A stretch of DNA of 64,000 nucleotides from Haloterrigena turkmenica DSM 5511 (GCF_000025325.1 NC_013743.1:2232001-2296000); one strand, 5' to 3'; shown: positions 196-4,565, counted from the first letter of the stretch. The notes: a model not told the origin generated them from the letters alone. Numbers and translations: made by a program.

Positions 196-1710
196 TTACG
201 GCGCGATCCAGACGTTCGTCGCGGCGACGGCTGACATCTGGATGTTTTCGTTCTCCTGCATGCTCACCTGCGTCGCGGCGGCGTCCCCGTCGTCCTCGGC
301 GACGGCGATCGCCGAGTGCTGTTCGTTGACGTTCTCCTGGGTCACGAACTGGGTCTGCTCGAGGGCGGCCGTCGCGTCCTGGGTGACGTCGCTGGTCTGC
401 TCGGCGCTGGTGTCGTAGTCGTAGGACATGCCCGGCGCGTCCTCGACGTCGTCACCGCCGACGGTGACGGTCGTACTCGAGGTCTGTGCGGCCGAGTCGT
501 AGTTGAATCCCGGCGACGCGTACACGTTGAGCGCAGCGGCGGAGCCGATCTGTGCGTTGTAGTTCTGCTGAGAGGCCATCTGGACGGCCTCAGCTTCGCT
601 GTCGTTGACCGCGATGGCAACCGCCGTGTTCTGGAGGTTGATGTTGAGCTGCTCGACGGCCTGCTCCTGCTCGACGCTGGTCGTCGCGGTCTGGGTGTCG
701 TCCTTGTCCTTCTTGTCCTTGGACGGCGTCTCCGTGTCGACGACGCTGCTGTCGCCGGCGGACGCGACGTTCATCTCGCCCATCGAGGCGATCAGGTTGG
801 CGGCGTTAGCGGAGCCGACCTGTTCGTTGAGGTTGGTCTGGTCGGTGACCTGGATCGCCGTCGCGGTGCTGTTCTCGCCGACCGCGATGGCGACGGCGGC
901 ACCTTGCTCGTTGACGTTCGTCTGTTCGACGGCCTGCTGCTGGGTGAGCCAGGTGTTCGCGCTCTGCTCGGTGTACTCGCCCTGGCCCGCGTAGATGTTC
1001 GACGCGTTGGCGGCGCCTTCCTGCAGGTTCTGGTTGTGCTGTTCGGTCTGCTGGAGGGCCGTCGCCGAACTGTTCTCGGCGGCGAAGGCGAAGGCCACGC
1101 TCTGCTCGTTGTAGTTCCCCTGCGCGACGTCTTGGGTCTGGGTCACGCTGGCCTCAGCCGACTGCGTGACGGTCTCCTTGTCGCCTTTCTCCGTGGCGAC
1201 TCCCCAGCCGTTGAACTGCTGGCTGTCGCCGCTGCCCATGACCAGGTAGACGTTGCCGACGTCTTCGAACTGGGTCGTCTGGCTGCTGACGACGTTGTTC
1301 TCCGCCGAGGCCTCGCCGGTCTGGGCGTTGGCGTTGAGCTGGTTGGCTTCCTGGATGGCGGTCGCCTCGCCGCCGTCGATCGCGATCGACACCGCCTCAC
1401 CCTGCTCGTTGATGTTCACCTGATCGACGTTCTGGTGCTGGATGACCTCGGTGTTGCTCGTCTGGTTCGCGTTCAGTTCCTCGGACGCGTGAGCGTCGAT
1501 GTACTCCTCGAGGCTCATTCCATCGAGATCGGCGCCGAAGACCAGGTAGAGGTCTTCGCCGTCCTCGAGGGCGTGAACCGAATCGGCCTGGACGTCATCG
1601 TTGCCGCCCGCCATCGCGGCTGGCGCGCCGGCGGCCAACATCGATATGGAAACGATACAGGCCATCAATACTGTCGTATACCGTGAGCGTCTCGTGTCTT
1701 CGTCTGTCAT
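196..1710 (-). CDS. Secreted five-repeat Q/N/A-rich protein, curlin-like beta-solenoid candidate
   Basis: The 504-residue protein begins with a Sec-type signal peptide (hydrophobic residues 13-34, likely cut after AMA). The mature part contains five repeats of about 55 residues at roughly 88-143, 188-242, 254-309, 345-399 and 449-503. Each repeat has two halves of the form Q.Q.V.Q.N.NEQ...A.A.A and A.Q...Q.N.N.Q.G.A.A.N. Such regular spacing of Gln, Asn and small residues resembles curlin strand-loop-strand repeats, but this is pattern similarity only. A short YLVFG/YLVMG motif occurs at about 54 and 154, and a Lys/Asp-rich linker at 330-339. The two 118-residue proteins at 2817 and 3196 carry one copy of the same repeat, so the three genes probably work in one extracellular assembly. 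No secretion partner like CsgG is visible nearby. Function is not proven. Confidence 0.85.
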   Translation of the reverse strand: MTDEDTRRSRYTTVLMACIVSISMLAAGAPAAMAGGNDDVQADSVHALEDGEDLYLVFGADLDGMSLEEYIDAHASEELNANQTSNTEVIQHQNVDQVNINEQGEAVSIAIDGGEATAIQEANQLNANAQTGEASAENNVVSSQTTQFEDVGNVYLVMGSGDSQQFNGWGVATEKGDKETVTQSAEASVTQTQDVAQGNYNEQSVAFAFAAENSSATALQQTEQHNQNLQEGAANASNIYAGQGEYTEQSANTWLTQQQAVEQTNVNEQGAAVAIAVGENSTATAIQVTDQTNLNEQVGSANAANLIASMGEMNVASAGDSSVVDTETPSKDKKDKDDTQTATTSVEQEQAVEQLNINLQNTAVAIAVNDSEAEAVQMASQQNYNAQIGSAAALNVYASPGFNYDSAAQTSSTTVTVGGDDVEDAPGMSYDYDTSAEQTSDVTQDATAALEQTQFVTQENVNEQHSAIAVAEDDGDAAATQVSMQENENIQMSAVAATNVWIAP

Positions 1711-2816
1711 GGTAGCTCTGATTTTCGGTCGTGAGTTTGTTTTGTTGCTGAACGATTCGACGCGAACGGGTCTTTCCCGATGATAGACTTTGTTATCGAC
1801 AGGTTGGAAAACGTATTAGTCGTCCTACTAACTGGAATTCGATCTCTACTCTCAGAAACTACCGTCTACCCCCGGCTGACGACCGGCTCAGACGGCCGAT
1901 TACGCGTCGCCGTCCGGAGGAGTCGGCAGATCGATACGCGATACGCCACGACGTCCGACTTACGTTCGAAGTTCTTTGATTCGAGACGCTTCTCTGACAA
2001 CGAAACCGAAAACTACCGGCGAAAGTTGTGGTCGAATGATCGTTTCATGATCGAAGGGCGATCCAGCGCATGGTAATCGACAATGAGCGTGAACGGTTGC
2101 GATCGATGGCGAGGCGACGCCGGCTCCAACGGCGGCCGCGATCGGCACGGCGCGACGGCTGTTGTGAGAGCGACCGCGGCGCCTCCCGACGCGATGCAGT
2201 CCGACGCTCGTTCGGACGGTCCGAGAAGAGCACACCGACGATCAGCGCGCGAGACGGGAACCGCGGGTCTCGAAATCGATCGATTCATCGCCGCTGCCGG
2301 CCAGCGGCTCTCGCGGGATGAGTTCGCAGTGTGTACACGCGACGATCACGGCATCACGCGGCCTCAGATCGGTGATCAATCGGCTCTCGAGACCGTCCAA
2401 CCGACGGTCTCGATGAGCGAACGCTCGTTCACGGCGACGAACTGTTCCCGTCACGGAGACTATTACGACGTTGCGATTAAAGTTACAGCCGATCTACACA
2501 ATCTATTTCGAAGACGGCGTGGAATCAGTTCAGCGGGAAATTCCAGTAGTAGCGACTATCTATCCGCGTCCGAGTAAATATTACGCATTTTTAATTAGAT
2601 TTACTACACATCCTAACGATTGTAACTGTCCGCAATATCGGCTATACAGCGTAACCGTTGGGCGGTTTAATACGGAACCCGGCTGTTGACCCGACTGGGC
2701 AACACGGCGCGTTGGACGCTCGAGACGACCGGCTTCGTACGCTGAGCGACTGCGAATCCGGTCACAGTGGAGTGGTACTCGAGCGTCCATGCGTGTGTGG
2801 GTGCCCATGATCAACC
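1711..2816. other. Gene-poor spacer between two repeat-protein loci
   Basis: I see no convincing gene in this 1.1 kb. A short minus-strand reading frame at 2242-2454 has a plausible patch with a CTHC motif but no recognisable family and could be a decayed fragment. The part from about 2570 to 2640 is AT-rich. The bases around 2667 (ggtttaatac) could be a TATA box for the small genes, which would give them an untranslated leader of roughly 120 bases. Confidence 0.5.
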
Positions 2817-3173
2817 ATGAAACGCGCAATCTCGATGCTGCTGGCGATCGCACTGGCGTGTAGCTTCGTATTCGCAGGGAGTGCAGCTGCACTGGATATC
2901 AACGATGTCGACCAGGACATCGACCAAGACGCGGACCTCTATCAGGACGCGGACGCGGACGTCAAGCAGTACCAGGACGTCGACCAGAAGAACGTCGGCC
3001 TGCAGGGCGGTAACGTCGCGTACGCAGCGTACGGAGACGCCACGGCCCAGAACGACCTAGACCAGTCGAACACCAACGTGCAGTACGGTGTCGCTGAAGC
3101 CGAGAACGAAGGCGAAATCGACCAGGACGCCGACCAGGAAGCCGAGAACGAGTTCGAGTTCGACGCCTTCTAA
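2817..3173 (+). CDS. Small secreted single-repeat Q/N/D-rich protein, copy 1
   Basis: This 118-residue protein has a Sec signal peptide (residues 1-25, ending in GSAAA). The mature chain is very acidic. Residues about 51-100 form one copy of the repeat found five times in the protein at 196-1710: QDVDQ, then N.GLQ, then alternating small residues, then DQSNTN.Q.GVAEAEN. The flanks are runs of DQDAD-like acidic pairs. It is followed after 22 bases by a near-identical copy. By analogy with curli, a one-repeat protein could be a fibre subunit or a nucleator of the larger protein, but this is inference. No known family is recognised. Confidence 0.85.
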   Translation: MKRAISMLLAIALACSFVFAGSAAALDINDVDQDIDQDADLYQDADADVKQYQDVDQKNVGLQGGNVAYAAYGDATAQNDLDQSNTNVQYGVAEAENEGEIDQDADQEAENEFEFDAF

Positions 3174-3189
3174 CTAACTAACTAACTAA
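3171..3189 (+). repeat. TAAC tetranucleotide run between the twin genes
   Basis: The stop codon of copy 1 is the first of almost five TAAC units. Because the unit is four bases long, the run puts a TAA stop into all three plus-strand frames before the next start codon. It may be a product of the duplication or a slippage-prone spacer. Confidence 0.8.
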
Positions 3190-3195
3190 TCAACA

Positions 3196-3552
3196 ATGAA
3201 ACGCGCAATCTCGATGCTGCTGGCGATCGCACTGGCGTGTAGCTTCGTGTTCGCAGGAAGTGCGGCTGCACTGGATATCAACGACGTCGACCAGGACACC
3301 GACCAAGACGCGGACCTCTACCAGGACGCGGACGCGGACGTCAAGCAGTACCAGGACGTCGACCAGACGAACGTCGGCCTGCAGGGCGGTAACGCCGCGT
3401 ACGCAGCGTACGGAGACGCCACGGCTCAGAACGACCTAGACCAGTCGAACACCAACGCGCAGATCGGTGTCGCTGAAGCCGAGAACGAAGGCGAAATCGA
3501 CCAGGACGCCGACCAGGAAGCCGAGAACGAGTTCGAAGTCGACTTGTTCTAG
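3196..3552 (+). CDS. Small secreted single-repeat Q/N/D-rich protein, copy 2
   Basis: This is a tandem duplicate of the gene at 2817, also 118 residues. I count seven substitutions (I35T, K58T, V67A, V88A, Y90I, F115V, A117L), so the proteins are about 94 percent identical. The signal peptide is unchanged and the changes lie in the acidic N-terminal stretch, the repeat and the C-terminal tail. The similarity begins a few bases upstream of each ATG (tcaac), so the duplicated unit is about 379 bases. The role is expected to match copy 1. A T-rich stretch follows the stop codon at about 3575-3581. Confidence 0.85.
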   Translation: MKRAISMLLAIALACSFVFAGSAAALDINDVDQDTDQDADLYQDADADVKQYQDVDQTNVGLQGGNAAYAAYGDATAQNDLDQSNTNAQIGVAEAENEGEIDQDADQEAENEFEVDLF

Positions 3553-3920: not shown

Positions 3921-4565
3921 ATGAACCAACGAACCGCGATGGCGCTGGCGATCGGACTCGCGGCAGCGGCGGTCGTCGCCGCGGGTGCAACGGTGATCGC
4001 TGCATCCGACGAGCCCGTAAGCGATTCGACTGAAAACACTTCAGAAAACATGACAGAAACCGAATTTTCGTGGGGAACGGTCGTCCACGAAACCGACTCC
4101 GAAACCGGCGATACCGACGTCGAGGTGATCGTCGACGCCGACGATGACATCTCGATATCGACGATCGCGGCCCCCGATGCGACGGATGAGTACCGCGACG
4201 AAGCGACTACGGCCGATGCAGACATCGAGTCGTTCCCCTGGGGGGCAGTGATCCACGCGACCGATTCCGACACCGATGCGACCGATATCGAAGTGATCGT
4301 CGACACCGACGATGACGTCTCGGTTTCCGTGACGTCGGTCTCCGAGAACGGCGTTCAGACGTCGACGTCGTCCGTCACGTCCACGAGCGAAACGAGCGAG
4401 AGCAGTACGAGCGTCTCACAGTCGACCGTTTCGTCGACGACGGTCTCCGGCTCGTCGGTTACCAGTAGCTCGACGGACGTTACGCAATCGTCGACCCAGA
4501 CCGACGGCGAATCGATCGATATCGATATCGATACCGAGACGGATACCGATACCGACGACAGCTAA
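3921..4565 (+). CDS. Secreted Ser/Thr/Asp-rich protein with duplicated F.WG.V.H motif
   Basis: The 214-residue protein has an N-terminal hydrophobic signal or anchor (residues 7-28). Two repeats of about 33 residues follow at 48-80 and 105-137. Each reads F.WG.V.H.TDS.T..TD.EVIVD.DDD.S.S. Residues 145-195 are almost only Ser, Thr, Val and Gln and look like a glycosylated stalk. The C-terminus is a run of acidic residues alternating with Ile or Thr (about 196-213). I recognise no family. Its place beside the repeat proteins suggests a cell-surface or matrix role. Confidence 0.75.
   Translation: MNQRTAMALAIGLAAAAVVAAGATVIAASDEPVSDSTENTSENMTETEFSWGTVVHETDSETGDTDVEVIVDADDDISISTIAAPDATDEYRDEATTADADIESFPWGAVIHATDSDTDATDIEVIVDTDDDVSVSVTSVSENGVQTSTSSVTSTSETSESSTSVSQSTVSSTTVSGSSVTSSSTDVTQSSTQTDGESIDIDIDTETDTDTDDS

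Follow-up and report, generated by a model that had tools for sequence, protein, structure and literature searches.

A conserved gene module of haloarchaea encodes long and short secreted proteins that share a Q/N-rich beta-repeat

We analysed a 64,000-nucleotide stretch of DNA (the window) from Haloterrigena turkmenica DSM 5511. Near its start, a long gene, A, is divergent from two short genes, B and C. As predicted originally, all three proteins have signal peptides, which are clear by eye and conserved in homologues. The features of the locus are as follows.

196..1710, minus strand: long gene A, 504 amino acids; signal peptide, N-terminal segment and five two-strand Q/N units separated by variable linkers
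1609..1710, minus strand: signal peptide of A, residues 1-34, assigned by eye (..AAGAPAAMA/GG), conserved in relatives
1297..1458, minus strand: unit R1 of A, residues 85-138
994..1161, minus strand: unit R2 of A, residues 184-239
796..960, minus strand: unit R3 of A, residues 251-305
523..690, minus strand: unit R4 of A, residues 341-396
211..378, minus strand: unit R5 of A, residues 445-500
1711..2816, no strand: intergenic region separating A from the divergent short genes; Rfam gives no match
2817..3173, plus strand: short gene B, 118 amino acids; signal peptide and one unit, acidic tail
2946..3107, plus strand: unit in B, residues 44-97
3196..3552, plus strand: short gene C, 118 amino acids; tandem copy 22 bp downstream of B
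3325..3486, plus strand: unit in C, residues 44-97

C is 94% identical to B, and no RNA elements were found by Rfam in the first 5 kb of the window. Comparison of A with its counterpart in Haloterrigena salina (93% identical) gave a Ka of 0.031 and a Ks of 0.177, and the resulting Ka/Ks of 0.175 indicates purifying selection. The minus strand is, thus, the coding one, despite the presence of a 456-amino-acid ORF antisense to A (window 316-1686, plus strand). Homologous antisense ORFs are found in many relatives; the ORF over A is most simply explained as a by-product of a constrained coding strand in GC-rich DNA. Adjoining the short genes (window 3921-4565, plus strand) is a gene for a secreted-looking 214-amino-acid protein, rich in Ser, Thr and Asp and with a Ser/Thr-rich tail, which contains two similar segments of ~45 residues (..FSWGTVVHETDSETGDTDVEVIVDADDD.. 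and ..FPWGAVIHATDSDTDATDIEVIVDTDDD..) and has no family match above the cut-off.

A contains ten exact QxxxQxNxNxQ motifs; in 20,000 shuffles of mature A the motif averaged 0.005 copies and never exceeded one. The motifs pair at a distance of 27-28 residues, making five units of ~55 residues, and a unit profile built from the long proteins of relatives recovers all five units in A. The original prediction of five ~55-residue repeats in the 504-residue protein is borne out as to their number, but each repeat is really made of two similar halves of 27 residues. Among 55 complete long homologues, the number of half-repeats is exactly ten in 51. Within a unit the spacing is 27 or 28 residues (272 cases), and linkers range from ~35 to 108 residues; that is, in the long family the units are rigid and the linkers are free. 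Long proteins also have conserved non-repeat segments, such as VYLIMGNGDSQQFDGWGV and EDLYLVFGADL, the latter being part of the N-terminal segment of A ('EDLYLVFGADL..LEEYI'). A ends in ..TNVWIAP and has no C-terminal anchor in H. turkmenica; the PGF-CTERM motif (PGF, a hydrophobic helix and a basic tail) was looked for in A and is missing. Five of 15 long homologues have PGF-CTERM (Pfam PF18204, best 6e-6). Every second residue of the unit belongs to a conserved face made of Ala (31%), Gln (26%), Asn (19%), Ser (9%) and Val (6%), with 2.4% of residues charged, whereas the opposite face is 26% charged and contains Val, Ile, Thr and Glu. This pattern is that of a two-faced beta strand.

One copy of the repeat had also been predicted in each 118-residue protein. 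Indeed, the unit profile finds a single unit in B (E 3.2e-15) and in C (E 2.4e-14), against 0.15 for the best of 200 shuffled C sequences; the motif in B and C is a variant (QxxxQxNVGxQ / DxxQxNxNxQ). The 59 short homologues, which have a conserved signal peptide and a variable mature part, behaved similarly: 42 of the 59 mature proteins reached 10 bits or more against the unit profile, versus 0 of 295 shuffles, and QxNxNxQ was present in 80% of them versus 2% of shuffles. When the H. turkmenica genome was searched with a profile of the short proteins, convincing E-values were obtained only for B, C and the units of two long proteins, the next match being at 0.0098. Judged by these sequence comparisons, the repeat of the long and short proteins is homologous. 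Tandem short genes (window 2817-3552, and the pairs at L032 and L033) seem to evolve in concert. In each Haloterrigena species both copies share species-specific changes in the signal peptide and N-terminus, and the identity of the copy is kept in a mature segment (NAQIG versus NVQYG/NLQYG). In Haladaptatus salinisoli (L110:9896-11852), four or more short secreted proteins with one unit each are encoded in tandem on one strand over ~2 kb.

Thirty of the 61 genomes sampled contained long homologues, all within the organism's own family, and matches of the unit profile in a phylum sample of 295 genomes were confined to the same family. Scanning species genomes yielded 58 loci, from Natrialbaceae plus Haladaptatus, Halomicrococcus and Halegenticoccus. 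The family was found only in haloarchaea among the genomes sampled; there were no viral relatives in IMG/VR and no meaningful viral fold match. Searches of Pfam, NCBIfam, PHROGs and PDB sequences with the window proteins gave nothing relevant, and homologues in plasmid records are annotated as 'hypothetical protein' or 'PGF-CTERM sorting domain-containing protein'. To the extent that these searches reach, the long/short repeat family is undescribed.

Sufficient sequence upstream was available for 39 long genes of the Sec type, and in 35 of these at least one gene for a short secreted protein lies upstream in divergent orientation, no more than 2.5 kb away. Among the four that lack one is L091, which is actually Tat-type and was misplaced in the Sec-type set by the simple rule used. 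The long and short secreted proteins with a common repeat, originally proposed as a modular set, are encoded by a divergent gene pairing that is conserved among Natrialbaceae. The long/short family is old and constrained. Among the recurrent neighbours of the module, judged from their sequence starts, we recognised no export or assembly factor. Tat-exported long paralogues fall into one group (15 rows, 92/96 support), and no short gene was found beside any of 12 of them. H. turkmenica itself has such a paralogue (L029:6382-7947, minus strand; C1 ~438.4-439.9 kb), a long five-unit protein with a twin-arginine signal (KRRGYLKG), a Lys-rich tail, 45% identity over the repeats and no adjoining short genes. 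The clade of this paralogue spans Natrialbaceae and Haladaptatus.

We modelled A by AlphaFold using 41 homologues (mean pLDDT 63.5). The units were predicted with a pLDDT of ~70-92 and most linkers with less than 50. Each unit was modelled as two beta segments of 27-30 residues, broken only near unit position 28-32. The five models of A disagree, with mean pLDDT ranging from 63.5 to 34.2, and the short protein alone was modelled poorly (pLDDT 58). Foldseek comparison of the A model with the PDB returned only four matches at E<=10, none of the three amyloid ones significant: Pontibacter CsgA (8c50, E 0.17, TM ~0.05), two FapC structures (9nqd and 9u4u, E 0.80 and 6.5, TM ~0.05) and a Caulobacter S-layer protein. 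The CsgA and FapC neighbours are a hint rather than a match, and may be driven by amino-acid composition. The secondary-structure string is compatible with both parallel stacked arches and long antiparallel hairpins, since the palindromic QxNxNxQ satisfies both parallel and antiparallel pairing. Repeat-aware covariation at equal positions was weak for units one apart (mean z 0.28) and two apart (0.41), and absent for units three or four apart and on within-unit antiparallel registers; when units were pooled for a mean-field analysis, invariant columns dominated the result. The covariation pattern, thus, leans weakly to stacking, and the model and the non-significant fold search are no more than suggestive of a stacked solenoid. 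No confident non-solenoid structure appeared among the models, and no unrelated enzyme family came up in the searches.

The best explanation of these results, to which we give an even chance, is that A together with B and C makes up an archaeal two-component secreted cross-beta scaffold, which might form fibres or amyloid. Each ~55-residue unit would form a beta layer with two arms and a turn at unit position 28-32; its uncharged Q/N/A face would point inwards and its charged or aliphatic face outwards. Within A, five of these layers would stack, connected by the variable loops, and B and C would be single-layer subunits with the same stacking face as A. Sec export across a single membrane would suffice to bring A to the cell surface, where in some species the PGF-CTERM tail would serve as an anchor. 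Single-layer subunits could then add onto A or each other to give a fibre or matrix scaffold, the long and short proteins playing roles of the FapC/FapB or CsgA/CsgB kind, with A as the template. Stacking, heterotypic assembly, fibre formation and a role in the matrix are proposed here by analogy with those systems. Q and N on one uncharged face, and repeats plus linkers, make up a design that is found in bacterial functional amyloids. A more far-reaching form of the proposal, a hitherto undescribed archaeal functional amyloid, evolved separately from curli and Fap, in which the five-layer protein, surface-anchored or secreted, templates polymerisation of the single-layer ones encoded divergently next to it and so builds the extracellular matrix of Natrialbaceae, we regard as rather doubtful.

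The main rival is that A is a discrete, fixed-size, beta-rich surface protein (an adhesin or envelope spacer), soluble or anchored, which B and C bind as partners or competitors, with no polymer or amyloid being formed. We take this seriously while judging it somewhat improbable. The conserved non-repeat segments such as EDLYLVFGADL and the PGF-CTERM anchors of some homologues speak for it, as does the constancy of the unit number (51 of 55 long homologues); a nearly universal count of five fits a protein of defined size no less well than it fits a fibre, which counts against the scaffold. For the Tat-exported branch it gains from the lack of short genes (0 of 12) and from export of proteins that are presumably folded beforehand, an argument that applies to that branch. 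Yet the same unit occurs in single-unit secreted proteins encoded next door, the Q/N/A face is the design of self-stacking repeats, and the linkers are predicted to be disordered. It is also conceivable, though unlikely, that the units form long antiparallel beta-hairpins in a sheet or sandwich instead of parallel stacked layers. Such hairpins would agree with the two 27-30-residue strands and one turn per unit given by AlphaFold, and QNNQ can self-pair in the antiparallel sense (unit positions 14:47, 16:45, 18:43 and 20:41). The fold search, however, found no antiparallel sheet or barrel, three of its four PDB matches (not significant) being stacked-repeat amyloids, and what covariation there was, though weak, fell at equal positions of units one or two apart rather than on within-unit antiparallel registers.

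The repeat had originally been called curlin-like, and Q/N/A alternation, a divergent gene pair and the existence of long and short forms could suggest that A, B and C are true, if divergent, members of the CsgA/CsgB family of curli subunits. This is very improbable. Neither A, B and C nor 15 long homologues matched Pfam Curlin_rpt (PF07012) at E<=10; the QxGx2N motif occurs twice in A, not at all in B and C, and 0-1 times in most homologues; and hhalign of the unit against archaeal curlin repeats showed no similarity. CsgG (PF03783) is absent from the H. turkmenica genome, and a search of 21 genomes gave no match to it above the cut-off. Since haloarchaea lack an outer membrane, they would not need an exporter in one, nor is such an exporter expected in archaea. 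The searches were sensitive enough, because they detected, elsewhere in the H. turkmenica genome, a protein with genuine curlin repeats (L049:1300-2037, minus strand; C1 ~1329075-1329671). This secreted 245-amino-acid protein has ten 19-residue QxGx2N repeats and matches Curlin_rpt at 2.1e-45 (152.8 bits) and Pontibacter CsgA (PDB 8c50) at 2e-16. Membership of the window proteins in the curlin family is, thus, refuted at the level of sequence. Four of six genomes from the genus encode the L049 protein, and beside its gene is a conserved one (L049:426-1202) for a secreted-looking 258-amino-acid protein of no known family. Among 292 genomes sampled from the class, two contained curlin repeats, both of the genus of H. 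turkmenica. Dueholm et al. (PMC3521004) give the curlin motif as tandem X6-QXGX2N-X10 and mention one archaeal protein with curli-like repeats, which may be the L049 protein. Finally, B and C could be halocin-like or other secreted peptides resembling A by coincidental composition, given their conserved signal peptide and variable mature part and a weak NCBIfam match to the BLB8/JUQZ family (E 0.16). This has hardly any chance of being right and is strongly disfavoured: the BLB8/JUQZ match covers the signal peptide alone, the unit match of the mature part exceeds that of all shuffles, and synteny with the long gene is conserved. A paper on a haloarchaeal precursor peptide (PMC12893001) deals with an alpha-helical effector and gave no link to B and C.

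A two-component secreted scaffold would be relevant to haloarchaeal biofilms. Those of Haloferax volcanii are stained by Congo red and thioflavin T, but the candidate protein put forward for them is tentative (PMC4180959), and the amyloid-dye-binding material of haloarchaeal biofilms is without an established gene. The compact and conserved long/short module is a testable candidate for archaeal matrix or surface fibres made without curli or Fap machinery. As a further, apparently independent case of a Q/N ladder, it could help in learning what the sequence of a functional amyloid must contain; fibre formation, if true, would raise the interest of the module considerably. The module is a new archaeal variant, probably of independent origin, of the secreted Q/N beta-repeat scaffold, a kind that is itself known.

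Like curli CsgA/CsgB, the window proteins are secreted, have Q/N/A repeats with one uncharged face and come as paired subunits, and CsgA is the best PDB fold neighbour of A (8c50, E 0.17, not significant). They differ from curli in their 27-residue halves (19-23 residues in curli), in being haloarchaeal, and in having no PF07012 match, almost no QxGx2N and no CsgG. The L049 protein shares with them secretion, Q/N repeats and the species, but is a true Curlin_rpt protein with a 19-residue period and no profile similarity to the window unit. The module looks like an archaeal counterpart, not a relative, of the parts from which bacteria make curli-type fibres. Methanospirillum, from a different archaeal group, has a sheath protein that is also an archaeal extracellular structural protein and is described as amyloid-like (PMC10593813, PMC6242892); by its description it is set apart as a sheath from the Q/N-repeat module reported here. 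In architecture, with discrete Q/N repeats set between linkers of variable length and with paralogues of two sizes, the module is closest to Pseudomonas FapC/FapB. In the solved structure of FapC each Q/N repeat forms one layer of a stack, and flexible linkers connect the layers (PMC12822426); the repeats of FapB are truncated versions of the FapC type (PMC3684753). Fap features found here are imperfect Q/N repeats separated by variable linkers and a second repeat protein. A comparison of the unit profile with all PDB chains, FapC structures included, gave nothing relevant. Unlike FapC, with its three Greek-key repeats, A has five 55-residue units; the repeats of FapB are shorter, whereas B and C have fewer units, not shorter ones. 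Unlike in Fap, no assembly gene was recognised beside the module, and A, B and C are putative amyloids. As in FapC/FapB, however, discrete repeats with invariant Asn and Gln are separated by linkers in Sec-exported proteins, and FapC is among the few fold-search neighbours of A (not significant).
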